Assembly (NCBI RefSeq): GCF_000016185.1
Contig: NC_011420.2
Span: forward strand, 2,829,001-2,893,000
Reading direction: 5' to 3'
Length of the DNA: 64,000 bases
DNA from: Rhodospirillum centenum SW
GTDB taxonomy: Bacteria > Pseudomonadota > Alphaproteobacteria > Azospirillales > Azospirillaceae
The translations under genes were made by a program, and so were the position numbers. The notes under the pieces were generated by a model, which made no database searches, was not told the DNA's origin, and saw only the letters and a list, made by a program, of their open reading frames with translations. Positions 34,418-61,728 of this stretch are shown in pieces; the first letter of the stretch is position 1, and each line of letters opens with the position of its first letter.

Positions 34418-34529
34418 GGGTCGTTCCATCCGAAACGGGATGGGCGAGTATCGGTGCTTCCGCCGGGCTGGAAAAGGAAAAGGCGCAGCGGCCGCCGCCG
34501 ATGCGCCTTTTCCGGCAAGACGGAAAACC

Positions 34530-35330: not shown

Positions 35331-35468
35331 CACCCGTGAAGTTGACCGTCGGAACCCGGCGCCGACGGCGCGGGTCCCTCACGGTCTACCTCCAACGGGT
35401 AAAGAATACCCTCTCCAAACGGGCGGACGCGGCCCGCATCGCGGGAATGACCGGCGGGCCGGGAGGAG

Positions 35469-37374
<1,906 letters not shown>

Positions 37375-37377
37375 TCC

Positions 37378-37394
37378 GGCTGCCGCAGGCAGCC
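37378..37394 (+). terminator. Short hairpin after glnZ
   Basis: GGCTGCC-GCA-GGCAGCC is a perfect seven-pair stem 4 bp after the glnZ stop. It has no T-run, so it may be a weak terminator or a 3' stabilising stem. It suits a monocistronic glnZ transcript. Confidence 0.5.
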
Positions 37395-39054: not shown

Positions 39055-39156
39055 CGCCCGCCGGGGTGCGGACCCCCGGGCGGGGGCCGGCGCGGCGCCG
39101 CGCCCGGAACAGAAACGCCGGACCCCGGCAGCGGCCCGGACGCGCGTACTGCCTGG

Positions 39157-39204
39157 ACCGCCTGATGACTGAATTGCCTGACGACTGGATTGCCTGACGA
39201 CTGG
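39157..39204. repeat. Three 16-bp tandem repeats between aat and ftsK
   Basis: ATTGCCTGACGACTGG occurs twice in tandem (39173 and 39189), preceded by a diverged copy ACCGCCTGATGACTGA. They lie about 90 bp before the ftsK start. The remainder of the gap shows no gene. Confidence 0.8.
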
Positions 39205-39295
39205 ACCCGTAGCCCGACAGCCTGCGTTCCGATGCCCTGCACCCCGACCCCACCAGCCCGATCCCACCGGCGACGACCTTTCCCTGGATGACAGC

Positions 39296-42028
<2,733 letters not shown>

Positions 42029-42053
42029 CCCGGACGGGACAGGGCCGGTCGCG

Positions 42054-42063
42054 GGCGGCTGGT
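42054..42063. repeat. Target-site duplication, left copy
   Basis: GGCGGCTGGT directly precedes the left end of the insertion sequence and is repeated exactly at 43331-43340 after its right end. Confidence 0.85.
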
Positions 42064-43330
42064 CAGGGCTTCGAATCCAAGTTAAGGGATGGCGGGGTTG
42101 AGGAGAGAGGCGAGGTAGTCGTCCGACCATCCGGCCATTTTTCGGCGCGTCTTGAGCGACTTTTGGTCGTTGGCTGCGCGGATGAGGTTGAGGGCGAAGT
42201 GGCGGACGACGGCCATGTTCTTGGCACCGTGGCCGGTTCGCAAGCGCGAGAGATCGTCCTTGAAGAGGACGTCGAGCACCCAGTGCAGCCTGTTCTCGAT
42301 GCCCCAGTGCCCGCGGACGGCGTCGGCGGCGTGTTCGGCGGTGAGCGGGGCGGAGGAGATGAAGTAGCGGGTGTCGGTCCGCGTCCGGTCGGCGATGTGG
42401 GCTGTGGTGTGGACGCGGACGATGGCGGCGACGTCGGGCAGGCGCATCTCCCCAGGAAACCGGCGCGTGCCGGAGAGCCAGTCGACCTCACGGATCACGC
42501 TCACGTGGCGTTCTTCGACCCGGCCGTGCCCCTTGTCGAGGTCGTGGTGGTGGTCAGCGCCGTCGCCGACGGCGAACGCCGCCTCGAGCTCCGCGCGCAG
42601 CGTGGGCTGGTTGGCCTTGACGGCGAGGAGGTAGTCGGCGCCCTGGCCCCGGATCGCGGCGGCGATGGTCGGGTTGGTGGCGATGGCGTCGATGGAGACG
42701 AGGGCGCCGGCCAGCCCGCCGTTCTCGCCGAGCCGATCGAGCAGCACCGGAATCGCCGCAAGCTCGTTGGCCTTGTCGGGGACCGCCTCCTGGGCGAGCA
42801 CCAGGCGGGAGGTCGTCGCGAAGGCGGATACGAGGTGGATCGGCGCGGTCCCGGCGCGGCGGTCGTGGCTGCGCCGCGAGGTCTTGCCGTCGATGGCGAC
42901 GAAGTCGGCCCGCCCCGGAAAGGTCGCACGTACCCACGCGGTGAAGGCGGCCGAGAACAGCGCCGGATCGATCCGGTTCATCAGGATCGTCAGCCACCGC
43001 TCGCCGGGAACGCCGTGCGCGTAGGGCAGATGCCGACGCAGGAACGGCAGGTGCGCCGCACCCCAGGCCGCGATGTTCTCGTAGTCGTCGCAGTCCGCCA
43101 TCGTGCCGCACACCACCAAAAGCAGGATCTCCGGCAGCGGATGCAGGATCCGCCGCTCATCCCGCGGGTCCTCTATCCGGCTGAAATGCTCCAAAAGCAC
43201 CCGAAGCCGCGACTTCGAACCCCAATCGTCCTCGTCCATGACGCCGATCCCGTGCCGTCCGATAACACCGGCCCACAGAATCAGCAGTTCCGCAATCTGT
43301 CACCCGCTGTCACATGAGTTCAGTGCCCTG
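42064..43330 (-). mobile_element. ISAs1-family insertion sequence, complete
   Basis: A 1267-bp element with imperfect terminal inverted repeats. The left end is CAGGGCTTCGAATCCAAGT and the right end, read inward, is CAGGGCACTGAACTCATGT, matching at 13 of 19 positions. It carries one intact transposase gene and is flanked by a 10-bp target duplication, as ISAs1 elements make. It lies 35 bp after the ftsK stop, in the gap before lolA, so no gene was broken. Intact ends, gene and duplication point to a recent, possibly active insertion. Confidence 0.88.
42082..43239 (-). CDS. ISAs1-family transposase
   Basis: A 385-residue DDE transposase. The N-terminal DUF4372-like region has HFSRIEDPRDERRILHPLPE and CGTMADCDDYENIAAWG. 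The first catalytic Asp is in FVAIDGKTSRRSHD, the second in ALVSIDAIATNP, and the Glu in VRGHWGIENRLHWVLDVLF. VKANQPTL is another family mark. There is no frameshift, so the enzyme should be functional. It is transcribed against ftsK and lolA. Confidence 0.93.
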   Translation of the reverse strand: MDEDDWGSKSRLRVLLEHFSRIEDPRDERRILHPLPEILLLVVCGTMADCDDYENIAAWGAAHLPFLRRHLPYAHGVPGERWLTILMNRIDPALFSAAFTAWVRATFPGRADFVAIDGKTSRRSHDRRAGTAPIHLVSAFATTSRLVLAQEAVPDKANELAAIPVLLDRLGENGGLAGALVSIDAIATNPTIAAAIRGQGADYLLAVKANQPTLRAELEAAFAVGDGADHHHDLDKGHGRVEERHVSVIREVDWLSGTRRFPGEMRLPDVAAIVRVHTTAHIADRTRTDTRYFISSAPLTAEHAADAVRGHWGIENRLHWVLDVLFKDDLSRLRTGHGAKNMAVVRHFALNLIRAANDQKSLKTRRKMAGWSDDYLASLLNPAIP

Positions 43331-43340
43331 GGCGGCTGGT
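43331..43340. repeat. Target-site duplication, right copy
   Basis: GGCGGCTGGT directly follows the right end of the insertion sequence, an exact copy of the left flank at 42054-42063. Confidence 0.85.
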
Positions 43341-43465
43341 CGGGGCGGTTGACCCGCCGCGGCCGCCCCTCCATTCTTCCACCGCCCCTCCATTCTGCCA
43401 ATGCGCCGCGCCGTGTCGGGGTCCGCGTCCGCAATCCCGCCACGATGCCCGGCCACGATACCCGC

Positions 43466-44167
43466 ATGAAGACCATTCTCTCCCCGACTGGGATCACCCC
43501 GACCGCACGACCCGGAACGGTCCGCTCCCTGCTGGCCGCGACGGTCGCCGCCGCGGCACTCGCCCTGGCCGTGCCGGCGGCCCCGGCCCGGGCCGCCCCG
43601 GCGGCATCGGAGGTCGCCCGGACGCCGGAGGTCGCGGCCGATCTGGCGCGGGTGGAGGCGTATCTGAACGGCATCGGCACCCTGCGTTCCCGCTTCCTCC
43701 AGGTCGCGGACGACGGCAGCTCGGTGAAGGGCACCTTCGCCCTGGCGCGGCCCGGGCGGATGCGGATCGACTACGACCCGCCGGTCGGCAACTTCATCGT
43801 CGCCGACGGCCGCTTCGTCTATTTCTGGGACGCCGAGCTGAAGCAGCAGTCGAACGCCCCGATCGGCAGCACCCTGGCCGACTTCCTGCTGCGCCCGCAG
43901 ATCAGCCTGTCCGGCGATGTCACCGTCACCGAGGTGGCGCATGACGGCGGCGTGCTGGAGGTGACCCTGGCCCAGACCAAGGACCCCGCCCTGGGCCGGC
44001 TGACCCTGGTGTTCGAGGAACGGCCCTTCGCCCTGCGCAAGTGGCGGGTGCTGGACGCCCAGGGGCTGACCACCGAAATCTCCCTGCTGTCCCCGGAGAC
44101 CGGGGTGGAGCTGAAGGACGAGCAGTTCTTCTTCCGCGACCCGACCCGCCGGCGGGAGCGGGACTGA
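43466..44167 (+). CDS. lolA: Outer-membrane lipoprotein carrier LolA
   Basis: A 233-residue periplasmic carrier that moves lipoproteins from LolCDE to the outer membrane. The signal peptide is LLAATVAAAALALAVPAAPARA. The mature part has VEAYLNGIGTLRSRFLQV, GTFALARPGRMRIDYDPP, FIVADGRFVYFWDAELKQ and ISLLSPETGVELKDEQFFFRDP, as in alphaproteobacterial LolA. The ATG at 43466 starts the signal peptide; another at 43445 is possible. It follows ftsK as usual, now separated from it by the insertion sequence. Confidence 0.9.
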   Translation: MKTILSPTGITPTARPGTVRSLLAATVAAAALALAVPAAPARAAPAASEVARTPEVAADLARVEAYLNGIGTLRSRFLQVADDGSSVKGTFALARPGRMRIDYDPPVGNFIVADGRFVYFWDAELKQQSNAPIGSTLADFLLRPQISLSGDVTVTEVAHDGGVLEVTLAQTKDPALGRLTLVFEERPFALRKWRVLDAQGLTTEISLLSPETGVELKDEQFFFRDPTRRRERD

Positions 44168-44252
44168 CCGTCCGTCTTTCCGGACCGTTGCGGTTCCGGC
44201 GGGGGCTGGCGCACACTCGGGACGCGCCATCCCGCTTTCCGAGACGGTCCCC

Positions 44253-45059
44253 ATGAGCCTGCCGATCCCCCCGAGCCCCTCCCGACCGGCCCCGTCCCGA
44301 CCGGCCACCATCCGGCCCCCGGTCGGCATCCCCGCCTGCGCCCGCACCCTGGGGCAGCATCCGTTCCATGTCGTCGGGGACAAGTATGTCCGCGCCGTCA
44401 GCGAAGGGGCGGGGGCGCTGCCGCTGGTGCTGCCGGCGCTGGGGGACTGGTACGACGTGGACGCCCTGCTGGACCGGCTGGACGGCCTGTTCTTCACCGG
44501 CAGCCCGTCCAACGTGCATCCCGCCGCCTACGGCCGTGCGCCGGGCACGGAAGCGCCCCCGCATGACGAGGCGCGCGACGCCACCACCCTGCCGCTGATC
44601 CGCCGCGCCCTGGAGCGGGGCGTGCCCCTGCTGGCGGTCTGCCGCGGCTTCCAGGAACTGAACGTGGCCCTGGGCGGCACCCTGCATGCGCGGGTGCAGG
44701 AGGTGCCGGGCATGATGGACCACCGCGAGGACAAGGACGCGCCGGTGGAGGTGCAGTACGGCCCCGCCCATACCGTGGCGCTGGCGCCGGAGGGGCGGCT
44801 CGCGGCTATCACCGGCCGGCGGGAGCTGCGGGTGAACTCCGTGCATTCCCAGGGCATCGACCGGCTGGCGCCGGGCCTGGTGGTGGAGGGAACGGCCCCC
44901 GACGGGCTGATCGAGGCGGTGCGGGTGGAGGGGGCGCCCTTCGCGCTGGCGGTGCAGTGGCACCCGGAATGGCGCTTCCGCGACGACCCGGCCTCCACCG
45001 CCCTGCTGGCCGCCTTCGGCGCGGCCGTCCGCGACCACGCCGCCGCACGGGGGCGGTGA
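44253..45059 (+). CDS. Class I glutamine amidotransferase-like hydrolase (PuuD-like)
   Basis: A 268-residue enzyme of the peptidase C26 group, which includes gamma-glutamyl-GABA hydrolase. The catalytic Cys is in LLAVCRGFQELNVALGG and the His/Glu in LAVQWHPEW; FFTGSPSNVHPAAYG is another family block. It probably cleaves a gamma-glutamyl amide, but no putrescine genes are nearby. The 3' end has been duplicated: its last codons recur as a 19-bp tandem copy beyond the stop. It lies between lolA and a toxin-antitoxin pair. Confidence 0.8.
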   Translation: MSLPIPPSPSRPAPSRPATIRPPVGIPACARTLGQHPFHVVGDKYVRAVSEGAGALPLVLPALGDWYDVDALLDRLDGLFFTGSPSNVHPAAYGRAPGTEAPPHDEARDATTLPLIRRALERGVPLLAVCRGFQELNVALGGTLHARVQEVPGMMDHREDKDAPVEVQYGPAHTVALAPEGRLAAITGRRELRVNSVHSQGIDRLAPGLVVEGTAPDGLIEAVRVEGAPFALAVQWHPEWRFRDDPASTALLAAFGAAVRDHAAARGR

Positions 45060-45079
45060 GGCCGCACGGGGGCGGTGAG
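45042..45079. repeat. 19-bp tandem duplication across the amidotransferase stop
   Basis: GCCGCACGGGGGCGGTGAG occurs twice back to back. The first copy holds the stop codon, so the duplication lies after it and does not alter the protein. Confidence 0.85.
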
Positions 45080-45100
45080 GCGGAGGGTGTAAAGCACGAC

Positions 45101-45131
45101 TTGACATCTTCGGAATGTAAAGCCATACATT
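45101..45131 (+). promoter_or_regulatory. Promoter and operator of the higBA pair
   Basis: TTGACA at 45101 is a perfect -35 element. AATGTA-AAGCCA-TACATT (45114-45131) is an inverted repeat whose right half, TACATT, can serve as the -10 (19-bp spacing). The operator thus overlaps the promoter, as expected for repression by the HigA antitoxin. The start of transcription would fall at or next to the toxin ATG at 45136, giving a leaderless or nearly leaderless message. Confidence 0.6.
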
Positions 45132-45135
45132 ACAG

Positions 45136-45411
45136 ATGATCCGGTCGTTCCGAAGCAGGGCACTGGCGCTTTACTGGGAGCAGGCTGACGGCCGGAAGCT
45201 CCCGGTTCAGAACCACGCGCGAGTGCGACGCCAGTTATCCGCCTTGGACGCCGCTGGGATGCCAGAGAACCTGAACCTGCCCGGATACGGTTTCCATTGT
45301 CTGAGCGGGACACCCAGGCGCTGGTCGATCTGGGTATCGGGAAATTACCGGATCACCTTCGGCTGGGATGGAGTCGACGCCGTGGACGTCGATATCGAGG
45401 ACTACCACTAG
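45136..45411 (+). CDS. higB: HigB-type toxin (RelE superfamily)
   Basis: A 91-residue protein of the HigB/killer family: MIRSFRSRALALYWEQ, RVRRQLSALDAAGMPENLNLPG, FHCLSGTPRRWSIWVSGNYRITF ending in VDIEDYH. These are ribosome-dependent mRNA interferases; the basic/aromatic residues of RRWSIWVSGNYRITF form the usual active face. The toxin precedes its antitoxin by 65 bp, the normal higBA order. No ribosome-binding site is seen before the ATG. Confidence 0.85.
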   Translation: MIRSFRSRALALYWEQADGRKLPVQNHARVRRQLSALDAAGMPENLNLPGYGFHCLSGTPRRWSIWVSGNYRITFGWDGVDAVDVDIEDYH

Positions 45412-45476
45412 GAATGCCAGACGCTCTGCGTCCGTATCCATATCAGTGCGAGTATTTCCCATTAGGGAGACCCACA

Positions 45477-45773
45477 ATGTCCACCGCCCTTCCGCCGCTG
45501 CATCCGGGTGAACTGCTCCGGGAGGATATCCTGCCGGCCCTGGGTATCACCGTGTCGGAGATGGCGGAGCATCTGGGCGTGTCGCGGCAGACCCTGCACG
45601 CGATCCTGTCCGAGCGCGCCGCGGTGACCCCGGCCATGGCCCTGCGCCTGGGCAAGCTGTGCGGCAACGGGCCCGAGATCTGGCTGAACCTCCAGGCGAA
45701 GTGGGACATCGCCACCCTGACGACCGCCTTGAGCGACGAGCTGGACCGTATCCCCACGCTGACCACCGCCTGA
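45477..45773 (+). CDS. higA: HigA-type antitoxin
   Basis: A 98-residue helix-turn-helix protein. LPPLHPGELLREDILPALGI is the HigA N-terminal signature; SEMAEHLGVSRQTLHAILSER is the XRE-type recognition unit, and GNGPEIWLNLQAKWD closes the domain. It would neutralise HigB and repress the operon through the inverted repeat at 45114-45131. AGGGAGA lies eight bases before the ATG, so unlike the toxin it has a strong ribosome-binding site, which would favour antitoxin excess. Confidence 0.88.
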   Translation: MSTALPPLHPGELLREDILPALGITVSEMAEHLGVSRQTLHAILSERAAVTPAMALRLGKLCGNGPEIWLNLQAKWDIATLTTALSDELDRIPTLTTA

Positions 45774-45849
45774 GAGGCGGGGCGCGCCCCGGCCTTGATC
45801 CCGCCGCCGGTCCCGCCATATCGCAGGGATGGGAATGGAGCGGAGAACC

Positions 45850-46632
45850 ATGGGCGGGACGATGGTGGCGGCCGGAGCGAACGGCCCGGCTGGGGCGCTG
45901 GCGGAGGAGCGGACCTTCACGGTCAGCGAGCTGATCCAGGCCACGCCCGACGTGCGGATCGTGCGGCTGGTGCCGGCAGACGGGCGGCCCTTCGACTTCC
46001 AGGCGGGCCAGTATGCCCGCGTCGGCTTCGCCGGACTGCCGGCGCGGGATTTCTCCATCGCCAGCCGGCCCGGCGAGCCGCATCTGGAGTTCCACATCCG
46101 CGACGCCGGGCAGGGCACGGGTGCCGCCCACTATGCCGTGCGCCATCTGCGGCCGGGCGAGCGGGTGGTGCTGAGCGGCCCCCTGGGCGACGCCACCCTG
46201 AAGCCGGAGCACCGCGGCCCGATCCTGGCCATCGCCGGCGGCTCCGGCCTGGCGCCCGTGAAGTCCATCGTGGAAACGGCGCTGGAGCGCGGCCATGCCG
46301 GGCCGCTGCACCTCTATTTCGGGGTGCGGACGGCGCGCGACCTGTATCTGGACGGACACTTCGCCGCCCTGGGACAGCGCCACCCGAACCTGAGCTTCGT
46401 CCCCGTCCTGTCCGAACCGGCCGGCCCCGGTCCCTGGCGCACCGGCCATGTCGGGCCGGCGGCGGTGGCGGATTTCGCCGACCTGTCCGGCTTCAAGGCC
46501 TATCTGGCCGGCCCGCCGGCCATGGTGGAGGGGACGGTGCCGCTGCTGCTGGAGAAGGGCATCGCCGCGGTGGACATCCACGCCGACGCCTTCTACACCG
46601 GAAACCGGACGCCGCAGCGGACCGGCCGCTGA
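45850..46632 (+). CDS. Ferredoxin-NAD(P) reductase-like flavoprotein
   Basis: A 260-residue protein of the ferredoxin reductase superfamily. FDFQAGQYARVGFAGLPARDFSIASRP contains the FAD-binding R-x-F-S block, and ILAIAGGSGLAPVKSIVETAL the NAD(P)-binding loop, with YLAGPPAMVEGTVPLLLEKGI near the end. The N-terminal plant-type ferredoxin domain found in related oxygenase reductases is missing, so it must hand electrons to a separate carrier. Several ATGs exist; 45850 has GGAG at good spacing. Partner unknown. Confidence 0.75.
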   Translation: MGGTMVAAGANGPAGALAEERTFTVSELIQATPDVRIVRLVPADGRPFDFQAGQYARVGFAGLPARDFSIASRPGEPHLEFHIRDAGQGTGAAHYAVRHLRPGERVVLSGPLGDATLKPEHRGPILAIAGGSGLAPVKSIVETALERGHAGPLHLYFGVRTARDLYLDGHFAALGQRHPNLSFVPVLSEPAGPGPWRTGHVGPAAVADFADLSGFKAYLAGPPAMVEGTVPLLLEKGIAAVDIHADAFYTGNRTPQRTGR

Positions 46633-46663
46633 GGCCGCCCGCCGTCCTTCCGGGGTCCCGCCC

Positions 46664-47464
46664 GTGCGCCTCTGCACCTGGAACATCAATTCCGTCCGCC
46701 TGCGCCTGCCGCTGCTGCTGAGGCTGCTGGACGAGCACGCCCCGGACGTCGTCTGCCTGCAGGAAACGAAGACCGTGGACGACACGTTCCCCCTGCGGGA
46801 ACTGGCGGAGCGCGGCTACCGCTTCGCCCACATCCACGGCATGAAGAGCTACAACGGGGTGGCGATCCTGTCCCGGCTGGAGCTGGGCGCGCGGGAGGTG
46901 CGGCACTGGTGCGGGCGGGAGGACTGCCGCCACATCGCCACCACGCTGCCGGTCGGGCCGGGGATCGAGCTGCACAACCTCTACATCCCCGCCGGCGGCG
47001 ACGTGCCGGACCCGGCGGTGAACGAGAAGTTCGCGCACAAGCTCCAGTTCCTGGACGAGATGATCCGCTGGTGGCCGGAACAGCGCAGTCCCGACCGGCC
47101 CATGATCCTGGTCGGGGACCTGAACATCGCACCGCTGGAGACCGACGTCTGGTCCCACCGCCAGCTCCTGGACGTGGTCTCCCACACCCCGGTGGAGGTG
47201 GAGAAGCTGACCCAGGTGCAGCGCACCCTGGGCTGGGTGGATGCCGTGCGCCGCTTCGTGCCGGAGACGGAGAAGCTCTACACCTGGTGGTCCTACCGCT
47301 CCGCCGACTGGGCCGCCAGCGACCGCGGCCGCCGGCTGGACCATGTCTGGGTCACCCCGCCGCTGGCCCCGGCGCTGGCCGGCACGACGGTGCTGCGGGA
47401 GGCCCGCGGCTGGGAGCCGAAGCCCAGCGATCATGTCCCGGTGCTGGTGGACTTCCGCTTCTGA
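46664..47464 (+). CDS. xth: Exodeoxyribonuclease III
   Basis: A 266-residue Mg-dependent AP endonuclease/3'-5' exonuclease. LCTWNINSVRLRLP, VVCLQETKT, GYRFAHIHGMKSYNGVAILSR, LIVGDLN-type LVGDLNIAPLETDVW and the C-terminal RRLDHVWVTPPL and KPSDHVPVLVDF carry the metal and catalytic residues (Asn, Glu, Asp, His). The start is a GTG; no ATG lies before LCTWN. It is the third member of the ftsK-lolA-xth block, here displaced from lolA by the inserted amidotransferase, higBA and reductase genes. Confidence 0.9.
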   Translation: MRLCTWNINSVRLRLPLLLRLLDEHAPDVVCLQETKTVDDTFPLRELAERGYRFAHIHGMKSYNGVAILSRLELGAREVRHWCGREDCRHIATTLPVGPGIELHNLYIPAGGDVPDPAVNEKFAHKLQFLDEMIRWWPEQRSPDRPMILVGDLNIAPLETDVWSHRQLLDVVSHTPVEVEKLTQVQRTLGWVDAVRRFVPETEKLYTWWSYRSADWAASDRGRRLDHVWVTPPLAPALAGTTVLREARGWEPKPSDHVPVLVDFRF

Positions 47465-47470
47465 TCCCCG

Positions 47471-47767
47471 TCAGGCCCGCCGGTCCCCCCGCGGCATCAT
47501 CAGGGCCAGCACCCAGAAGGGCGGCGCCCAGAGCACGGGGCTGACCGCAACCAGGGGAGCGGCCGCCAGCGCCAGCAGCGCCGGGGAGAGGAACCCGTCC
47601 AGCACCGCCGGATGCACCGGCGCGGGCGGACGTGCCGGGGTGATAGCCTGCGCCGCCGGGGTAGCCGCTGCCAGGGAAGCGGCTGCCGGGCGAGAGACTG
47701 CCGGCAGAGCGGGGTGCGGCGCGACACCATGGTCGTGCAGCAGATCGTGCAGCGCGTGGTCCAGCAT
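47471..47767 (-). CDS. Hypothetical small membrane protein, 98 aa
   Basis: Not recognised. MLDHALHDLLHDHGVAPHPA leads through an Ala/Pro-rich segment to a hydrophobic C-terminus (SPALLALAAAPLVAVSPVLW, then FWVLALMM) able to span the membrane once or twice. AGGAAG lies three to four bases before the ATG, which is the best evidence that it is real. It is convergent with xth and downstream of rho on the same strand, beyond a hairpin. Coding is plausible, not certain. Confidence 0.45.
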   Translation of the reverse strand: MLDHALHDLLHDHGVAPHPALPAVSRPAAASLAAATPAAQAITPARPPAPVHPAVLDGFLSPALLALAAAPLVAVSPVLWAPPFWVLALMMPRGDRRA

Positions 47768-47899
47768 CACTTCCTGCCTTGGCCGTTCCCGGCCCCTGCC
47801 GTGGGGCCGGGGTGGATGATCCTCCCGGCCAGTGCCGGGCGTCCAGCGCATCCCCCGCATGGCCGGGACCGCCCGGAGACGGGGGCCTCCCGAAAGCGA

Positions 47900-47932
47900 C
47901 GGAGCCGGCCACCCTGGGGGCGGCCGGCTCCG
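47900..47932 (-). terminator. Terminator hairpin downstream of rho
   Basis: CGGAGCCGGCC and GGCCGGCTCCG form an 11-pair stem with an 11-base loop, 45 bp after the rho stop. Read on the minus strand it is followed by GTCGCTTTCG, a weak T-run. Confidence 0.6.
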
Positions 47933-47976
47933 GATCGAAGCGTGTCCAGGGCCCGCGGACGGGCCGACGGACCGCG

Positions 47977-49245
47977 CTACTGGTTCATGCTGTCGAAGAA
48001 GTCGTTGTTCGTCTTCGCCTGCTTCAGCTTGTCGATGAGGAACTCGACCGCGTCCTGGGTGCCCATGGGGTTCAGGATGCGGCGCAGGATCCACATCTTC
48101 GCCATGGCGCCCTTGTCCACCAGCAGCTCTTCCTTGCGGGTGCCGGACTTCTGAATGTCGATCGCCGGGAAGACGCGCTTGTCGGAGAGCTTGCGGTCCA
48201 GGATGATTTCCGAGTTACCGGTGCCCTTGAACTCCTCGAAGATCACCTCGTCCATGCGCGAGCCCGTGTCGATCAGGGCCGTGGCGATGATGGTCAGCGA
48301 GCCGCCTTCCTCGATGTTGCGGGCGGCGCCGAAGAAGCGCTTGGGCCGCTGCAGGGCATTGGCGTCCACGCCGCCGGTCAGCACCTTGCCGGAGGAGGGC
48401 ACGACCGTGTTGTAGGCGCGGCCCAGGCGGGTGATCGAGTCGAGCAGGATGACCACGTCGCGCTTGTGTTCGACCAGGCGCTTGGCCTTCTCCAGCACCA
48501 TCTCCGTCACCTGGACGTGACGGGTGGCGGGTTCGTCGAAGGTGCTGCTGATGACCTCGCCGCGGACGCTGCGGGCCATGTCGGTCACTTCCTCCGGCCG
48601 CTCGTCGATGAGCAGCACGATCAGGTAGACCTCGGGGTGGTTGGTGGCGATGGAATGGGCGATGTTCTGCAACATCACCGTCTTGCCGGTCCGCGGCGGC
48701 GCCACGATCAGGGCGCGCTGGCCCTTGCCCAGCGGGGCGACCAGGTCGATGACCCGGGTCGTCATGTCCTTCTTCGACTTACCGGAACTGTCGACCTCGA
48801 TCTCAAGCCGCAGCCGGTCGTCGGGATAGAGGGGGGTCAGGTTGTCGAAGTTGATCCGGTGCCGGACCTTGTCCGGATGGTCGAAGTTGATCGAATTGAC
48901 CTTCAGGAGGGCGAAGTAGCGTTCCCCTTCCTTCGGGGAGCGGATCTGGCCTTCCACCGTGTCGCCCGTGCGCAGGCCGAAGCGGCGCACCTGGGAGGGG
49001 GAGACGTAGATGTCGTCCGGGCCGGGCAGGTAGTTGGCCTCTGGCGATCGCAGGAAGCCGAAGCCGTCGGACAGGACCTCCAGGACGCCCTCCCCGTAGA
49101 TCGGGACGTCGTTCTCGGCGAGCTGCTTGAGAATGGCGAACATCATGTCCTGCTTGCGCAGGGTGCCCGCATTCTCGATCTGGAGCTCTTCTGCGAATGC
49201 GAGGAGCTCGGCGGGCGTCTTGGCCTTCAGGTCCTGAAGATTCAT
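47977..49245 (-). CDS. rho: Transcription termination factor Rho
   Basis: A 422-residue hexameric RNA helicase. The N-terminal domain starts [20 protein letters not shown]; the RNA-binding cold-shock region has [23 protein letters not shown]; Walker A is in [12 protein letters not shown], Walker B in [14 protein letters not shown], and the secondary RNA loop region in [14 protein letters not shown]. Complete and of normal length. The start at 49245 is the canonical one. It is transcribed away from the origin, with a 323-bp leader region upstream. Confidence 0.97.
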
Positions 49246-49568
49246 GGTGTATCGATTGTGGGGGTCGGTTGGCGGTGACCGGGGAGGGCGATGGGCAGAC
49301 GCGACATGTCCGGTATAGGTGTCCGGCAAGGTGCCAGTGAAGCCGGGACCATCGATGCCGGGTGGAGCTGACCGGCTGTCGGGAGTTCGGCCTGATGCGG
49401 TGGCCAGTCTCTTCTAGACCACTCTGACGCCGGCCCGGGGAGGGACGACGGAGAACGCGTTGAGTTCTCAGGGGAGTGGACTCGCAGGCAAGAATTATGG
49501 TTAGCCGATGCCACGGATCAAGTCAAAGCAAAACATCCGCCACGCGGCCACTCTTCCGGGTAGCGGCC
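49246..49568. other. 323-bp leader region upstream of rho, no gene
   Basis: No credible coding frame. On the minus strand TTGACT (near 49527) with TAACCA 17 bp later could be the rho promoter, which would give a long 5' leader of about 250 bases. Long leaders are common for rho, which is autoregulated by attenuation. This is a resemblance, not proof. Confidence 0.4.
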
Positions 49569-49943
49569 TCAATCTCTGTCCGTCGCATCCTCGTCGGCGT
49601 CCTGCCCGACCTTCAGCAGGCAGCCCGCGGGATCGAGGTAGTAGACCTCGCGCATCCCCCAGGAGCGGTCGGCCGGCGGGCCACGGAAGGGTTTGACCCC
49701 CGCGGCCAGCGCCGCGGCATGGAAGCCGTCCACATCGTCCACCTGCAGATAGACAGACGATGCCCGGCAGAGTGCCGGATCGTCGGTGCGCCAGAGATGC
49801 AGGATCCAGCCCTCCCGCTCCAGCAGGGCGAACCCGTCGCCGTGGCGTCCCTCCACCTGGAAGCCCAGCCGTTCGTAGAAGGGCAGGGACAGATCCAGGT
49901 CCGGACTCGGCAGTTCGGCGCGCAGCGAGAGGATGCGGGCCAT
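49569..49943 (-). CDS. Glyoxalase/bleomycin-resistance (VOC) family protein
   Basis: A 124-residue vicinal-oxygen-chelate protein. LRAELPSPDLDLSLPFYERLGFQVE and the second half VYLQVDDVDGFHAAALAAGVKPF, then VYYLDPAGCLLKVGQ, form the two beta-alpha-beta-beta-beta units. The substrate is unknown; such proteins bind small electrophiles or drugs, or act as dioxygenases. It follows hemJ by 10 bp and is probably the last gene of the hemE-hemH-hemJ transcript. Confidence 0.75.
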   Translation of the reverse strand: MARILSLRAELPSPDLDLSLPFYERLGFQVEGRHGDGFALLEREGWILHLWRTDDPALCRASSVYLQVDDVDGFHAAALAAGVKPFRGPPADRSWGMREVYYLDPAGCLLKVGQDADEDATDRD

Positions 49944-49953
49944 CCGGGCGTCC

Positions 49954-50385
49954 TCAGAACGGCTTCACGATCACCAGGATGACGATGACGATCAGCAGGA
50001 TCGTCGGGACCTCGTTGAAGACCCGGAAGAACTTCTCCGAGCGGGCGGAGCGCGTCTCCTCGAACTCGCGGCGGTACCTGCCCAGCAGCATGTGCGCCGC
50101 CGTCATGCCCAGCACCAGCAGGATCTTGGCATGCATCCAGCCCTGTCCCGACAGCAGGGACGGGTTCAGCGCAAGCATCGCCAGACCGAACGTCCAGGTC
50201 GCGATCAGTGCCGGATTCATGATGTATTTCAGGAGCTTGCGCTCCATCACCACGAACCGCTGGTAGTCCGCGGCGCCCGGCGTGGTCTGGGTGTGATAGA
50301 CGAACAGCCGGGGCAGATAGAACATGCCCGCCATCCAGGCGACCATGGAAATCACATGGAAGGACTTGATCCAGAGATACAGCAT
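49954..50385 (-). CDS. hemJ: Protoporphyrinogen oxidase HemJ
   Basis: A 143-residue membrane protein with four hydrophobic segments. LWIKSFHVISMVAWMAGMFYLPRLFVYH contains the conserved His of the family; VMERKLLKYIMNPALIATW, GWMHAKILLVLGMTAAHMLL and FFRVFNEVPTILLIVIVILVIVKP are also typical. It oxidises protoporphyrinogen IX to protoporphyrin, the step before HemH, whose gene lies immediately upstream on the strand. No hemG or hemY is seen in the window. The start MLYLWIK is chosen over an unrelated upstream extension. Confidence 0.9.
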   Translation of the reverse strand: MLYLWIKSFHVISMVAWMAGMFYLPRLFVYHTQTTPGAADYQRFVVMERKLLKYIMNPALIATWTFGLAMLALNPSLLSGQGWMHAKILLVLGMTAAHMLLGRYRREFEETRSARSEKFFRVFNEVPTILLIVIVILVIVKPF

Positions 50386-50473
50386 GGACGGCAACTCCAC
50401 GGGAACGCGGGCGCCTTTGTAACCGCTTCGGCCGGGGAGGGAAAGACGGCCCTTGGGCCGTCGCCGCTGCGGC

Positions 50474-51544
50474 TCAGCCTGCCGCAGCACCCTGCGGGCA
50501 GCCGAGCGCTGTGGTCGGGCAGAAACGGCCGCCGTTCTGGGAGCACATGGTGCAGCCGGTCCCCAGGGACTGCCGCACCAGTTCCGCCAGACCGCGGATG
50601 AAGTCGGGTTCCACCCCCACCGTCGGCACCGCGACGAAGTGGGGCACGCCGTTTTCCTCCGCCAGCTCGCGGTACTCGTGGCCGATCTCCACGATCGTCT
50701 CGGAATGCTCCGACACGAAGGAGATCGGGACCACGACCAGCGGCACCCGGTCGCGCCCGGCGCGCAGGACCTCCTCCTCGGTGGAGGGGCCGAGCCATTC
50801 CAGCGGGCCGACCCGGCTCTGGTAGCAGGTCACCCAGTCCAGGCCCGGAATGTCCAGCGCGGCGATCACGGCCTCGGCCGTGCGGTCGCACTGCCAGGGG
50901 TAGGGGTCGCCGGCCTCCACGATCTTCATCGGCAGGCCGTGGGCCGAGAACAGCACCCGCGGCGTGCCGTGCGCCGCGGCCTCCGCCACCGCCCAGCGGA
51001 TCAGCCGGGCGTTGGCCTGGATGAAGCCGGGCTCGGTCGGATAGCAGCAGATCGTCCGCGTCGGCTTGTCCAGCCCGGCGGCCTTGGCTGCCAGATCCCA
51101 GACACGCAGGCTGGAGGCCGTCGTGGTGGTGGACCACTGCGGATAGAGCGGCAGCAGCACCACCTCGTCCGGGTCCCAGTCGCGCACGTCGCACGCCGTC
51201 TCGTCGCTCATCGGGTGCCAGTAGCGCATGGCGATGAAGGCGCGCACTTCACCCGCATCCCAGAGCGCTTCTTCCAGCGCCCGGGCCTGCGCCCGGGTGT
51301 TCTCCAGGATGGGCGATTTCCCGCCCATCTTCTCGTAGATGCCCCGGGCGATCCGCGCCCGGCGCCCGGCGATGAAGTGCGCCAGCAGCATCCGGAACGG
51401 ATTGGGCAGACGCAGGATCGCCGGGTCCGAGAACAGGTTGAACAGGAACGGGTGGACCGACTCCAGCCGGTCCGGGCCGCCCAGATTGAACAGCACGATG
51501 GCGATCTTCCGGCGGGATGCCGGGAAGGCGGCGGACTCTGTCAC
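50474..51544 (-). CDS. hemH: Ferrochelatase
   Basis: A 356-residue enzyme inserting iron into protoporphyrin IX. KIAIVLFNLGGPDRLESVHPFL, RYWHPMSDE, LPLYPQWSTTTTASSL, VLFSAHGLPMKIVEAGDPYP with the catalytic His, and ISFVSEHSETIVEIGHEY with the catalytic Glu are all present. The C-terminus carries four Cys (GCTMCSQNGGRFC, then a Cys in TALGCPQ), which could hold an iron-sulfur cluster as reported for some alphaproteobacterial and animal ferrochelatases. It lies 44 bp downstream of hemE. Confidence 0.94.
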   Translation of the reverse strand: MTESAAFPASRRKIAIVLFNLGGPDRLESVHPFLFNLFSDPAILRLPNPFRMLLAHFIAGRRARIARGIYEKMGGKSPILENTRAQARALEEALWDAGEVRAFIAMRYWHPMSDETACDVRDWDPDEVVLLPLYPQWSTTTTASSLRVWDLAAKAAGLDKPTRTICCYPTEPGFIQANARLIRWAVAEAAAHGTPRVLFSAHGLPMKIVEAGDPYPWQCDRTAEAVIAALDIPGLDWVTCYQSRVGPLEWLGPSTEEEVLRAGRDRVPLVVVPISFVSEHSETIVEIGHEYRELAEENGVPHFVAVPTVGVEPDFIRGLAELVRQSLGTGCTMCSQNGGRFCPTTALGCPQGAAAG

Positions 51545-51588: not shown

Positions 51589-52629
51589 TCAGCCGCGCAG
51601 GAGGCGCGTCAGCTCGGCCACATGCTCGGGCGGCGTCTCCTTCAGGATGCCGTGACCGAGGTTGAAGATGAAGGGCCTTCCGCTCATCGCCTCAAGCAGT
51701 TCAGTCACGCCGCGGCGCATTGCCGCACCGCCGGTCAGGAGCAGCACCGGATCCAGGTTGCCCTGAAGCGTGACGCCCTTGAGCGTCTCGGACGCCCAGG
51801 CCGCCGGCACGCCCGGATCGAGCGAAACGCCGTCCACCCCGGTCTCCCGCACATAGGCTTCCAGGTTCAGACCGGCCTGACGCGGGAAGCCGATGATCGG
51901 CACGCCCGGATGACGCGCCCGCAGCGCGTCCACGATGGCACGGGTCGGCTTGATCACCCACTGGTGGAAGCCGTCCACCGGCAGCGCGCCGGCCCAGCTG
52001 TCGAAGAGCTGCACCGCTTCCGCCCCCGCCTTGATCTGGGCGGAGATGTACTCGACCGTCGCCCGCACCAGCAGGTCGATGAGCTGACCGAACCCCTCGG
52101 GATCGCTGAACGCCCACTGCTTGACGTGCATGTACTCCTTCGAGCCCTGACCTTCGACCATGTAGCAGGCGACCGTCCAGGGCGAGCCCGCAAAGCCGAT
52201 CAGCGCCGTCGTCGGGAAATCCTTGTCCAGGTTCTCCCGGATGCGCCGCACCGTCTCGTAGACCGGCTCTGCCCGGCGGTGCAGGCCGTCGAAATCCAGC
52301 GCGCGCAGCCCGTTCATGTCCCGGATGGCGGCGAGACGGGGGCCTTCGCCTTCCGCGAAGCCGACGGACTGCCCCAGCGCATGCGGGACCAGCAGGATGT
52401 CCGAGAACAGGATCGCCGCGTCCATGCCGTAGCGGCGCAGCGGCTGCAACGTCACCTCGCAGCCCAGCGCCGGCTTCAGGCAGAGATCGAGGAAGCCGCC
52501 GGCCTGCGCACGCACCTCACGGTATTCCGGCAGATAACGGCCGGCCTGGCGCATCAGCCAGAAGGGCGGGCGGGTCTGGGTCTCACCGGCCAGGGCGCGG
52601 AGAAAGGGCTTCGTCGGGGCTGCGGTCAT
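51589..52629 (-). CDS. hemE: Uroporphyrinogen decarboxylase
   Basis: A 346-residue enzyme converting uroporphyrinogen III to coproporphyrinogen III. The N-terminal signature [21 protein letters not shown] carries the substrate-binding Arg residues; [12 protein letters not shown] holds the catalytic Asp; [30 protein letters not shown] and [16 protein letters not shown] follow. The start at 52629 gives the usual N-terminus. Its promoter lies in the origin region, so its expression may be coupled to replication, as discussed for Caulobacter hemE. Confidence 0.96.
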
Positions 52630-53062
52630 CGTCGCTGATCCAGGTTGTTCGGCGTCCCCCCTATACCTTGAATCCGGTATCAGAAGGAATGGGGGTGACA
52701 GTTGTGACTGTGGATAACGGGAATTCATGTTTCCCGCAAATCCATCCACAGGCTGCGGCAATCGTCATCCACGCCGAAAATGTCTGTGGACAGTTCGTCG
52801 GGTATCGCGCGGCAGGCCGCATCTGCGCTAGGTTCCGGCGGTCTTGAGTCCTGGGGATAATGTCGCGGTGCGGGATCGGTCGTCCCGGTGTTTCGGAGAG
52901 GTGCGACGGTTTTCTCCCCCGGCGCGCATCCCTGCTGCCAAGTCGTAGCGGCCACGTGGACCGATTTCGGGCATGCTGTCGCAGGCCCCGGGTTATCCCC
53001 GCACCCGACGGGTTGTTCACCCTTTGATTCCGGTTTCCGTAACGGGAGCGGCGCTGCGCCAG
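52630..53062. other. oriC: Chromosomal replication origin (oriC)
   Basis: A 433-bp gene-free gap between hemE and the RP001-type gene, the position of the Caulobacter and Rickettsia origins. It contains a perfect DnaA box (TGTGGATAA at 52709) and several near-matches: CCATCCACA 52742, TCATCCACG 52765, TGTGGACAG 52785, TGGGGATAA 52852 and TTATCCCCG 52993. Most cluster in the left 160 bp. AT-rich stretches suitable for unwinding are modest (52700-52740). No CtrA-type TTAA-N7-TTAA site is seen. Confidence 0.82.
52709..52717 (-). promoter_or_regulatory. Perfect DnaA box
   Basis: TGTGGATAA, the complement of the consensus TTATCCACA, 80 bp upstream of the hemE start within the origin region. Confidence 0.8.
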
Positions 53063-53926
53063 ATGAACACGGACACGATGACGAAGACCTTCCACCTGCA
53101 CCTCGTCTCCGACGCGACGGGAGAGACGATCAATTCCGTGGCGCGGGCCTGCGTCAGCCAGTTCGACCGGGTGCAGCCGATCGAGCATTTCTGGAACCTG
53201 GTGCGGACCGAGCGGCAGCTCGACATGGCCATCGAGGGCATCCGGGACACGCCGGGCCTGGTCATGTTCACCCTGGTGAACGACAAGCTGCGCCGGCGCC
53301 TCCAGGACACCTGCCGCGACCTCCAGGTGCCGTGCATCCCGGTGCTGGACCCGCTGATCGCCGCGCTGGGCGCCTATCTGGGGCTGGAAAGCCAGAGCCA
53401 GCCCGGCCGCCAGCACGCGCTGGACGCGGAATATTTCGGCCGCATCGACGCCATGGACTTCGCCCTGAACCATGACGACGGGCAGAGCGCCTGGGACCTG
53501 CACGAGGCCGACGTGATCCTGGTCGGGGTCAGCCGCACCTCGAAGACGCCGACCTGCATCTATCTGGCCAACCGCGGCATCAAGGCCGCGAACGTGCCCT
53601 TCGTGCCGGGCTGTCCGCTACCGCCGGAACTGGACCAGCTCCGCCGGCCGCTGGTGGTGGGGCTGACAAAGGATGCCGAGCGGCTGGTGCAGATCCGGCG
53701 CAACCGTCTGCGCCTGTTGAACCAGGGCGAGGACACCAGCTACACCGATCCCGAGAAGGTCCGGGCGGAACTGTCGGAGGCGCGGCGCCTCTACAGCCGC
53801 AAGGGCTGGCCGGTGATCGACGTCACCCGGCGGTCGATCGAGGAGACCGCGGCCGAGGTGATGATGATCCTGGCCCGCCGGCGCGCCGTTCCGGGCGAAG
53901 CGGGTCCCGGCGGCACGCCGGTCTGA
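53063..53926 (+). CDS. ppsR: RP001-type kinase/pyrophosphorylase (PEP synthase regulatory protein family)
   Basis: A 287-residue DUF299 protein, a bifunctional serine/threonine kinase and pyrophosphorylase family regulating PEP synthase or pyruvate phosphate dikinase. FHLHLVSDATGETINSVARA is the N-terminal signature; VILVGVSRTSKTPTCIYLANRG contains the P-loop-like nucleotide-binding segment; SYTDPEKVRAELSEARRLY and GWPVIDVTRRSIEETAAEV follow. A second ATG at 53078 is equally plausible. It is the first gene right of the origin, as in Rickettsia and Caulobacter. Confidence 0.88.
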   Translation: MNTDTMTKTFHLHLVSDATGETINSVARACVSQFDRVQPIEHFWNLVRTERQLDMAIEGIRDTPGLVMFTLVNDKLRRRLQDTCRDLQVPCIPVLDPLIAALGAYLGLESQSQPGRQHALDAEYFGRIDAMDFALNHDDGQSAWDLHEADVILVGVSRTSKTPTCIYLANRGIKAANVPFVPGCPLPPELDQLRRPLVVGLTKDAERLVQIRRNRLRLLNQGEDTSYTDPEKVRAELSEARRLYSRKGWPVIDVTRRSIEETAAEVMMILARRRAVPGEAGPGGTPV

Positions 53927-53980
53927 GCCGGGTCAGGAAGGGTCGGGTCCGCAGGGGTGGAGACGGGAAGAACGGTGGCC

Positions 53981-54592
53981 ATGGTCGCTCTCTCGAACGA
54001 GCCGGTCGTGCTGGCGTCCGGCAGCACCACGCGGCGCCGCCTGCTGGAGTCGGCGGGGCTGGCGGTGATCGTCGATCCGCCGACGGTGGACGAGGACGCG
54101 GTGAAGCGGTCCTGCCGCGCCGGCGGCCTGCCGCCGCAGGCGGTGGCCGAGGCCCTGGCCGAGCTGAAGGCCGCCCGTGTGGCGGCCCGCCATCCCGACC
54201 GCCCCGTCATCGGCGCCGACCAGATGCTGGAATGCGACGGTGTCTGGTTCGACAAGCCGGCCGATGCCGCCGCGGCACGGGCACAGCTTCTGGCCCTGGC
54301 CGGGCGGCGCCACCGGCTGATCTCCTGCGCCGTGGTCTTCCAGGGCGGACAGCGGGTCTGGCACACGCTGGACGAGGCGGTGCTGACCATGCGCCCGCTG
54401 GAGCCGGCGTTCCTTGACCGCTATCTCGCGGCGGCCGGGCCTTCCGTGCTGTCCTCCGTCGGCGGCTACCAGCTCGAAGGGCCGGGTGCCCAGCTCTTCA
54501 CCGCCGTGACCGGCGACTTCTTCACCGTGCTGGGGCTGCCGCTGCTGCCGCTGCTGGGCTTCCTGCGCACCCGCGGAGTGCTGCCATCGTGA
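53981..54592 (+). CDS. maf: Maf-family nucleotide pyrophosphatase
   Basis: A 203-residue Maf/Ham1-type nucleoside triphosphate pyrophosphatase that removes non-canonical or modified nucleotides. VVLASGSTTRRRLLESAGL is the signature, with GADQMLECDGVWFDKP carrying the catalytic Asp and VGGYQLEGPGAQLF the end block. A GTG at 53957 is an alternative start; the ATG has GGAAG upstream. Its stop overlaps the aroE start (GTGA). Confidence 0.85.
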   Translation: MVALSNEPVVLASGSTTRRRLLESAGLAVIVDPPTVDEDAVKRSCRAGGLPPQAVAEALAELKAARVAARHPDRPVIGADQMLECDGVWFDKPADAAAARAQLLALAGRRHRLISCAVVFQGGQRVWHTLDEAVLTMRPLEPAFLDRYLAAAGPSVLSSVGGYQLEGPGAQLFTAVTGDFFTVLGLPLLPLLGFLRTRGVLPS

Positions 54593-55437
54593 TCCTGTCC
54601 GGCAAATCCAGGATCGCGGGCGTCATGGGCTGGCCGGTCGGGCACAGCCGCAGCCCGCGCCTGCACGGCTTCTGGCTGCAGCAGTACGGCATCGACGGCG
54701 CCTATGTGCCGCTGCCGGTGCCGCCCGACCGGATCGAGCCGGCCATCCGCGCCCTGCCGGCGCTGGGGCTGGCCGGCTGCAACGTCACCGTCCCGCACAA
54801 GGAGGCGGCGTTCCGGCTGGTGGACCTGCTGGACCCGGCGGCGAAGCGGATCGGCGCGGTCAACACCATCGTCGTCCGGCCCGACGGCAGCCTGGAGGGG
54901 CGCAACACCGACGCCTTCGGCTTCCGGGAGAATCTGCGCGACGGCGCCCCCGCCTGGGACCCGGCGGCCGGGCCGGCCGTCGTGGTCGGCGCCGGCGGGG
55001 CGGCCCGCGCCGTGGCGGTGGCGCTGCTGGACAGCGGCGTGCCGGAACTGCGTCTGGTCAACCGCACCCGTGCCCGGGCGGAGGAGCTTGCGGCCGACCT
55101 CGGCCCCGGCGTGCCGGTCCGGGTGATCCCGTGGGAATGGCGCGCCTCGGCCCTGGCCGATGCGGGGCTGCTGGTGAACACGACGACCCAGGGCATGGCC
55201 GGGCAGGCCGGGCTGGACCTGCCGCTGGCGGGGCTGCCCCCGGCCACCGTGGTGACGGACATCGTCTACACCCCGCTGCTGACCCCGCTGCTGAAGGAGG
55301 CGAAGGCCCGCGGCAACCCGGTGGTGGACGGGCTGGGCATGCTGCTGCACCAGGCGCGGCCCGGCTTCCAGGCCTGGTTCGGGCTGGCGCCGAAGGTGAC
55401 GCCGGAGTTGCGCCGCTTCGTGCTGGAGGGGTTGTGA
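54589..55437 (+). CDS. aroE: Shikimate dehydrogenase
   Basis: A 282-residue NADPH-dependent enzyme reducing 3-dehydroshikimate in aromatic amino acid synthesis. [19 protein letters not shown] binds substrate, [12 protein letters not shown] contains the catalytic Lys, GAVNTIV and GRNTDAFGF follow, and [16 protein letters not shown] with [12 protein letters not shown] forms the NADP site. The GTG start overlaps the maf stop by four bases, so the two are translationally coupled. Confidence 0.94.
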
Positions 55438-55489: not shown

Positions 55490-56164
55490 ATGATCGTGCT
55501 GGGGCTCACCGGCTCCATCGGCATGGGCAAGTCCACCGCGGCGGCGATGCTGCGCCGGCTGGGCTGTCCGGTGCATGACAGCGACGCCGCCGTCCATCGC
55601 CTCTATGCCCGCGGCGGGGCCGCGGTGCCGGTGGTGGCGGCGCTGTTCCCCGACGCGGTGCGCAACGGCGCCGTGGACCGTGCCGCCCTGTCGGCCCATG
55701 TCGTCGGCCGGCCCGAGGCGCTGCGCCGGCTGGAGGCGGCGGTGCATCCGCTGGTGCGGGCCGACGCCGACCGCTTCCTGCGCCGCGCCGCCCGCCGGAA
55801 GGCAAGGGTGGCGGTGCTGGACATCCCGCTGCTGTTCGAGAGCCGCGGCGAGGGGCGGGTGGACCGGATCGCCGTCGTCTCCGCCCCGGCATCCGTGCAG
55901 CGCGCCCGCGTGCTGGCCCGGCCGGGCATGACCCCGGCGAAGCTGGCCGCCATCCTGGCGCTTCAGATGCCCGACCGGGAGAAGCGGCGCCGGGCCGATT
56001 TCGTGGTGCCCACCGGCCTGGGCAGACGCCATACCTTGATCGCGCTGACCCGGATCGTCAGAGTGCTGGGGATGGAGCGGGGCCGGATCTGGCCGCCGCG
56101 GGGCTACCGGCCGCCGGCCCCGTCCAGGGGCGTGCGGCCGCCCAGGACACCGGGACGGACCTGA
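55490..56164 (+). CDS. coaE: Dephospho-CoA kinase
   Basis: A 224-residue kinase for the last step of coenzyme A synthesis. The P-loop is [12 protein letters not shown], followed by [25 protein letters not shown] and [15 protein letters not shown]. The C-terminal 25 residues form a Pro/Arg-rich extension. The stop TGA shares two bases with the dnaQ ATG (TGATG), so the frames touch. Confidence 0.93.
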
Positions 56165-56847
56165 TGCGCGAGATCGTGCTGGATACGGAAACCACCGGCA
56201 TCGACGCCCTGAACGGCGACCGGGTGGTGGAGATCGGCTGCGTCGAGCTGATGAACCATGTCGCCACCGGCCGCACCTACCACCAGTACATCAACCCCGA
56301 ACGCGACATGCCGATCGAGGCGTTCAACGTCCACGGCCTGTCCACGGAGTTCCTGTCCGGCCAGCCCACCTTCGCCGAGATCGTCGGCCCGTTCCTGGAC
56401 TTCATCCAGGACAGCCCGCTGGTCATCCACAACGCCACCTTCGACGTGGGCTTCCTGAACGCGGAGCTGACCCGGCTGGGCATGCGGACCCTGCCCGCGG
56501 CCCGCGCCATCGACACGGTCGTGCTGGCCCGGCGCCGCTTCCCCGGCGCGCCCGCCAGCCTGGACGCGCTCTGCCGCCGGTTCGAGATCGACAATTCGGC
56601 CCGCAGCTACCACGGCGCGCTGCTGGACGCCCAGCTTCTGGCGGAGGTCTATCTGGAGCTGCTGGGCGGCCGCCAGCCCGACTTGGTGCTGGCCCCCACC
56701 GGCGCCCAGGCCGCGGCCTCCTTCCGCACCGACCGCCCCCGCCGCGAACCGCGGCCGCACGCCCCCCTGCCGGAGGAGCTGGAGGCGCATGAGGCCTTCC
56801 TGAAGGGCTTCAAGACCCCGCCCCTGTGGCAGACGCGGTCGTCGTAG
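56164..56847 (+). CDS. dnaQ: DNA polymerase III epsilon subunit (proofreading exonuclease)
   Basis: A 227-residue 3'-5' exonuclease. ExoI is REIVLDTETTGID, ExoII is VIHNATFDVGFLNAEL, and ExoIII-epsilon is YHGALLDAQLLAEVYLEL with the catalytic His and Asp. The C-terminal 45 residues are a charged linker that should contact the polymerase core. It completes the maf-aroE-coaE-dnaQ operon. The secB gene that often follows in alphaproteobacteria is not here. Confidence 0.94.
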   Translation: MREIVLDTETTGIDALNGDRVVEIGCVELMNHVATGRTYHQYINPERDMPIEAFNVHGLSTEFLSGQPTFAEIVGPFLDFIQDSPLVIHNATFDVGFLNAELTRLGMRTLPAARAIDTVVLARRRFPGAPASLDALCRRFEIDNSARSYHGALLDAQLLAEVYLELLGGRQPDLVLAPTGAQAAASFRTDRPRREPRPHAPLPEELEAHEAFLKGFKTPPLWQTRSS

Positions 56848-61712: not shown

Positions 61713-61728
61713 TGTTTCACGTGAAACA
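61713..61728. promoter_or_regulatory. parS: parS centromere site
   Basis: TGTTTCACGTGAAACA is a perfect 16-bp palindrome identical to the widespread ParB-binding parS consensus. It lies about 8.7 kb from the origin gap and six bases upstream of the mnmE start. ParB would load here for chromosome segregation. Confidence 0.92.

Follow-up and report, generated by a model that had tools for sequence, protein, structure and literature searches.

The chromosome origin is established to lie between hemE and RP001 in Caulobacter, and a location of this kind has been inferred for Rickettsia as well (PMC1914354), RP001 being equated there with COG1806. The origin of Caulobacter crescentus, Cori, is described as flanked by hemE and a COG1806 gene, as containing several DnaA boxes and as AT-rich compared with its own genome (PMC1914354); it has five CtrA sites (PMC1914354, PMC8959179). 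The Rickettsia prowazekii origin has the gene pair hemE/RP001, whereas another partner gene is found beside hemE in Wolbachia, Ehrlichia and Anaplasma (PMC1914354). The in silico origins of Ioannidis et al. 2007 (PMC1914354) were assigned by flanking genes, DnaA boxes, AT content and uniqueness, which are also the features considered here. According to that paper, these genomes have AT contents of 50–73%, and one or more CtrA-like sites are present in most of them, whereas R. centenum with its 70.5% GC has none in the region described below.

We analysed a stretch of 64,000 nucleotides from Rhodospirillum centenum SW, called the window in the following, which comprises positions 2,829,001–2,893,000 of a single-contig genome of 4,355,543 bases (4,355,548 bp in PMC2890560). 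At about 2.882 Mb of the genome, a gap of 433 bp, which is non-coding as read, separates hemE from the gene for a PPSR (COG1806, RP001-type kinase-pyrophosphorylase). The genes of this region and the gap are as follows (window positions).

47977–49329, minus strand: rho (PF07497, PF07498)
49954–50490, minus strand: UPF0093 membrane protein (PF03653)
50474–51544, minus strand: hemH, ferrochelatase (PF00762)
51589–52629, minus strand: hemE, uroporphyrinogen decarboxylase (PF01208; ATG at 52629)
52630–53062, no strand assigned: gap between hemE and PPSR, probable oriC (flanking genes, DnaA-box excess, top box-density window)
53063–53926, plus strand: PPSR / COG1806 / RP001-type kinase-pyrophosphorylase (PF03618; start position putative)
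53957–54592, plus strand: maf (PF02545)
54589–55437, plus strand: aroE (PF08501, PF01488)
55490–56164, plus strand: coaE (PF01121)
56164–56847, plus strand: dnaQ-like exonuclease (PF00929)

A preliminary description of this DNA had placed a 433-bp gap between hemE and an RP001-type gene and had likened the arrangement to that of Caulobacter. Both statements are borne out, the former by the PF01208 and PF03618 flanks and the latter by the hemE/COG1806 pair reported in PMC1914354. The reading frame of PPSR is open upstream to an ATG at 52973, and the bounds of the gap are based on the ATG at 53063. Matches in relatives start at residues 1–8 of the 53063 version, the query having consisted of the codons from 53063 on; the true start is therefore unproven, and the two rightmost weak boxes listed below could be coding.

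Scored against the DnaA-box consensus TTATNCACA, the gap contains one exact box, one box with one mismatch and five boxes with two mismatches. These boxes, the conserved core of the array and the region of low duplex stability are located as follows.

52641–52780, no strand assigned: low-stability duplex, candidate unwinding region (40-bp windows at the 91st–99th instability percentile in the 64-kb window, nearest-neighbour energies)
52706–52862, plus strand: core of the DnaA-box array, conserved (sole significant place in the genome for the model built from 25 relatives; alignments)
52709–52717, minus strand: DnaA box, exact TTATCCACA; in the plus-strand reading the conserved CGGNAATTC comes next
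52742–52750, plus strand: DnaA box CCATCCACA, two mismatches; pairs in inverted orientation with the exact box at a distance of 33 bp, and relatives have it at a corresponding position
52765–52773, plus strand: weak DnaA box TCATCCACG, two mismatches; conservation in the alignment not clear
52785–52793, minus strand: DnaA box CTGTCCACA, two mismatches; position conserved
52852–52860, minus strand: DnaA box TTATCCCCA, one mismatch; position conserved
52993–53001, plus strand: weak DnaA box TTATCCCCG, two mismatches (box scan)
53013–53021, plus strand: weak DnaA box TTGTTCACC, two mismatches (box scan)

Five of the seven boxes are found at 52709–52860, which is 80–231 bp from hemE, and thus cluster beside this gene as had been noted in the preliminary description. 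Its count of one perfect and at least five near-perfect boxes agrees with the exact box and six others found here, but ‘near-perfect’ was generous, as five of these six carry two mismatches. Dinucleotide shuffles of the gap lead to an expectation of 0.02, 0.13 and 1.75 boxes with up to zero, one and two mismatches, compared with 1, 2 and 7 observed. The mean for the 64-kb window is 0.64 boxes (up to two mismatches) per 433 bp, and seven are reached in only three of 1272 windows of this size, all of them on the gap. No enrichment is seen across the entire 64-kb window (seven sites with up to one mismatch versus 4.9 expected) or, for the exact TTATCCACA, in the genome (13 places versus 10 for the reversed control).

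In a box-density scan covering 1.985 Mb (46% of the genome), the gap ranked first of 19450 windows of 400 bp with a score of 68.1, the 99.9th percentile being 29.2. The next locus, a cluster at 3,441,748, reached 45.4 and is devoid of an exact box. We further carried out a genome search with a sequence-only model, R1, which had been built from 25 relatives with the R. centenum sequence left out. With 150 of 1860 first-look candidates scored, the gap was the only significant place (E = 1.4e-18), and the one other match up to E = 10 was the reverse strand of the gap (E = 0.105).

The third-ranked cluster of the box-density scan (36.9) contains the second exact box of the 64-kb window, at 37614, which was considered as an origin and rejected. 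This box is located in the gap that follows a gene recognized by eye as PII-like (glnK/glnB), 37 bp away from a CtrA-like TTAA-N7-TTAA sequence with one mismatch (37563–37577). The matching stretch in the related genome G019 contains no DnaA box with up to one mismatch.

The order hemE–gap–PPSR is kept in all 46 loci examined. These comprise 16 loci from named genomes and 30 from the family, R. centenum included, in partly overlapping sets; 29 of the 59 family genomes yielded no locus and are outside this count. The 28 non-redundant gaps (R. centenum included) contain 19 exact boxes with position 5 left free (0.18 expected) and 105 boxes with up to one mismatch (5.3 expected), the exact box being absent from nine of them. 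Alignment of 26 gaps, with two divergent ones excluded, revealed a common core, which consists of the consensus CCTGTGGATAACGGNAATTC, an inverted ATCCACA box about 33–34 bp further on, a CTGTGGA box and then CCTGGGGATAA. Among the columns that are invariant in the 25 relatives but located in the tail outside the 9-bp box are C13, G14, A18 and T19. The family origins (loci L003–L016 and L119–L148, among them those of Niveispirillum, Skermanella and Azospirillum) share with R. centenum the order of the core boxes, an inverted pair which is mostly 33–34 bp apart and a CGGNAATTC-like tail after the first box. They differ in the outer boxes and in the PPSR-side half, which vary.

The core extends beyond the family. 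When 10 candidates were scored per genome under stricter filters, R1 had a match at E ≤ 0.01 in 34 of 289 genomes of the class and none in the other 255. Among the 30 class loci returned, 29 are beside hemE and 24 beside both hemE and PPSR; when four loci of the own family are subtracted, the numbers are 25 of 26 and 20 of 26, respectively. The R1 core was found beside hemE in 20 other families by hand count. PMC1914354 states that origin sequences resemble each other only between closely related bacteria, a statement that our R1 result refines for the box array.

The gap is AT-richer than the genome (61% GC compared with 70.5% as given in PMC2890560), with 46–58% GC across 52625–52774 in 50-bp windows. 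Duplex stability is low at 52641–52780, and there are lesser stability dips near 52821 and 53061. As a difference to Cori, a strict match to the IHF consensus WATCAN5WTR is missing in the gap; such a match is present in four of the 28 non-redundant gaps, the consensus being degenerate and strict matches only having been scored. A sequence near 52678 that by eye resembled an IHF site was rejected because it does not fit the consensus. GANTC occurs three times in the gap (1.5 expected). A search of 52000–53600 against Rfam gave a single sub-threshold match, to a piece of a human lncRNA, which we took as chance.

Two parS sites are located to the right of the gap, the first of which is within the window.

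61713–61728, no strand assigned: parS, exact TGTTTCACGTGAAACA; mnmE frame, 5′ end

A genome search allowing up to two mismatches detected TGTTTCACGTGAAACA only twice, the distances from the PPSR start being 8.65 and 12.0 kb to the right. The second site, 3.35 kb right of the first and outside the window, lies within the gidB frame, and parA- and parB-type genes come next, so that ParA-type and ParB proteins are encoded adjoining the parS sites. An exact parS is present in 54 of the 59 family genomes (R. centenum included) and absent from five. For 49 genomes the parS places were listed; they are on the PPSR contig in 41 and on another contig in eight. Within the former group, 40 genomes have parS at a distance of up to 25 kb, nearest on the PPSR side in 36 and on the hemE side in four, and one has it at 61 kb. 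Proximity of parABS is usual for origins of this type but not a strict hallmark; according to PMC8116508, the Rhodospirillales include exceptions to the location of parAB near the origin. Genomes with parS on the hemE side are G011, G018, G039 and G043, and in G006 the parAB block is on that side; hemE–gap–PPSR is intact in all five.

The conserved array, its uniqueness in the genome and the two parS sites with parAB nearby support the proposal of the preliminary description that the chromosome origin lies between hemE and RP001. Judged from these sequence features, the 433-bp gap is predicted to be the chromosomal oriC with a probability of about 93%. The exact box at 52709, together with its inverted partner at 52742, would serve as the loading site of DnaA, from which the protein would extend to the weaker boxes at 52785 and 52852. 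By melting the weak duplex next to hemE (about 52641–52780), DnaA would then allow two divergent forks to start. ParB is expected to bind the two parS sites 9–12 kb to the right, segregating the new origins. The gap is very probably an unremarkable hemE-type origin as in Caulobacter, and the general picture of alphaproteobacterial origins is left unchanged.

An origin beside dnaA/dnaN was tentatively suggested in the genome paper (PMC2890560), where dnaA is given at 3,127,698. By PF00308 we found dnaA at 3,128,206; this location, at about 3.128 Mb, is 246 kb from the hemE gap. It agrees with the TA skew, which was determined together with GC skew, gene-strand bias and strand-corrected third-position skew from a sample of 80 stretches of 20 kb and evaluated by permutation tests (200 for the TA skew). 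The TA skew is significant, as the observed value was reached in none of 200 permutations, and its best origin is at 3.12 Mb, nearer to dnaA than to hemE, but its breadth does not allow the two to be distinguished. An origin beside dnaA is very improbable: the best 400-bp box window within 3,106,001–3,160,000 reaches 21.7, short of the 99.9th percentile (29.2) and far from the 68.1 of the hemE gap; there is no R1 match (150 of 1860 first-look candidates scored) and no parS with up to two mismatches; and the GGGNAGGG polarity described below is 19.2 log units worse than at the best switch.

The preliminary description had suggested a change of sign in GC skew as a check of the origin. GC skew turned out to be uninformative, as no significant switch was detected anywhere in the sample (permutation P = 0.215); PMC2890560 likewise describes the GC skew of R. 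centenum as being without a strong inflection point. Gene-strand bias and strand-corrected third-position skew are not significant (P = 0.75 and 0.875, respectively). The uncorrected octamer skew has its best switch pair at 1.91/0.16 Mb and not in the hemE region, with scores of 67.3k for hemE versus 52.0k for dnaA. Its top octamers resemble coding words, and we therefore judge it to follow the coding strand. After subtraction of a coding proxy, the best switches are at 2.87–2.96 and 1.13–1.31 Mb in a scan that is blind to origin versus terminus, and hemE scores 73.8k versus 58.2k for dnaA. The most skewed words after this correction are GGGCAGGG and GGGGAGGG, which we take to be the KOPS form GGGNAGGG.

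The sample contained 723 GGGNAGGG words, whose strong polarity switches near 2.93–2.96 and 1.11–1.31 Mb. When corrected for gene strand, their polarity switches best at 2.96 Mb on a 40-kb grid; the fit is worse by 18.6 log units at hemE and by 19.2 at dnaA. It thus disfavours both about equally and was not counted for hemE. The fitted switch is 50–80 kb right of the hemE gap and fits neither location, and this offset is the main result against a simple origin picture. Words at 2.885–2.955 Mb (window position 56000 onward) and at window positions 33800–50900 mostly aim toward the gap, opposite to the genome-wide pattern.

Taken at face value, the polarity, with its best-fitting switch at 2.92–2.96 Mb, would argue for an origin at about 2.955 Mb, with the hemE gap as an old or decaying one. 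It is in favour of such a location that a box window just above the 99.9th percentile of 29.2 is found nearby (30.3 at 2,944,637, in the stretch 2.942–2.962 Mb). We consider it extremely improbable, however. This window is without an exact box and has less than half the score of the hemE gap, R1 has no match in the region (150 of 1860 first-look candidates scored), the parS/parAB block adjoins the hemE gap instead, and the gap keeps the family pattern and so does not look decayed. Moreover, the reversed polarity right of hemE is seen in relatives also. For the first 30 kb right of hemE, the plus/minus counts of GGGNAGGG are +4/−23 in G019 and +3/−14 in G012, in both of which gene order differs past about 15 kb; they are +13/−1, and thus not reversed, in G006, which has its parAB-carrying block relocated across the origin. 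As the reversal is shared by G019 and partly by G012, it may belong to gene blocks.

For the left part of the offset, an explanation is available. Most matched genes of window positions ~19800–46700 are located across the origin in G019, on the same strand and at +29 to +54 kb. Relative to G019, this left block (~19.8–46.7 kb) has changed sides of the origin with its orientation kept, and this move can account for the left part. As for the right part (2.885–2.95 Mb), synteny with relatives revealed no single inversion. The polarity reversal may combine a bias tied locally to genes with rearrangements in the past.

DnaA boxes can also regulate promoters. That the boxes of the gap are only such elements, serving hemE or PPSR, would be in line with the importance of hemE transcription for Caulobacter replication (PMC8959179, legend to Fig. 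3), but is hardly credible for an array of more than 150 bp to which R1 gives its one significant genome match, which is also found next to hemE in other families and which adjoins parS/parAB, the more so as no better origin candidate turned up.

At the other polarity switch, a dif candidate at 1,219,103 was rejected: part of its flank is common to a second site at 130,301, so that it looks like a repeated element and not like dif. Two search patterns based on dif of E. coli detected no dif in the genome. The two places (G000:C1:1219103 and G000:C1:130301) share GATAAT-N6-TTATGGAAAATCAA, the spacer being different, in addition to part of the flank, and are probably copies of a repeated element. 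One of them adjoins the end of a gene which by eye is TonB receptor-like.

Compared with Cori by its described features, the predicted oriC at hemE differs in having none of the CtrA sites. TTAA-N7-TTAA with up to two mismatches does not occur in the gap, in agreement with the preliminary description, and under the rule of PMC1914354 (one mismatch allowed, only in the A's) a CtrA site is found in none of the 28 non-redundant gaps. The gap thus lacks the sites by which a CtrA-controlled origin of the Caulobacter type is recognized. This absence is to be expected, because TTAA is rare in the window (eight occurrences in 64 kb, none in the gap). Elsewhere in the window there are 22 CtrA-like sites with up to two mismatches (5.7 expected), many of which fall in an AT-rich island. 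Loss of ctrA in R. centenum had no negative effect on growth or viability according to PMC8116508, citing Bird and MacKrell (2011). Considering the rarity of TTAA, the absence of sites and the reported harmlessness of ctrA loss, control of the R. centenum origin is likely to be CtrA-free, an idea which is not new. The absence of CtrA sites noted in the preliminary description stands as an observation, but it is a weak argument for the suggestion that cell-cycle control may differ from Caulobacter, TTAA being rare and ctrA loss reportedly harmless.

A more far-reaching reading is doubtful. The family, and more weakly part of the class, might share a fixed origin core which works without CtrA, made up of the first box, its conserved CGGNAATTC tail, the inverted partner about 33–34 bp further on and the third and fourth boxes. 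In this view, either a second initiation factor would bind the CGGNAATTC tail or DnaA would extend its contacts into it. CtrA control would be a more recent acquisition of Caulobacterales and Rhizobiales.

In a literature search of titles and abstract openings, no publication was found that places the R. centenum origin at hemE. As far as this search shows, the placement at hemE, about 246 kb from the tentative dnaA/dnaN location of PMC2890560, is new, as is an alignable origin core for the family. R. centenum serves as a model for cyst formation, and studies of its gene dosage, replichores and cell cycle are affected by where the origin lies; the alignable core comes from an order in which ctrA loss is reported to be harmless to growth (PMC8116508).

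An AT-rich island at window positions ~14200–15050 has 63% GC per 2 kb in surroundings of mostly more than 70%. It lies inside a small gene which by eye is nucleotidyltransferase-like, and part of the gene sequence recurs on the far side; the island has an insertion-like appearance. In the relative G054, the PPSR match begins at base 498 of contig 1 (G054:C1:498), as if the record had been numbered from the hemE/PPSR origin.
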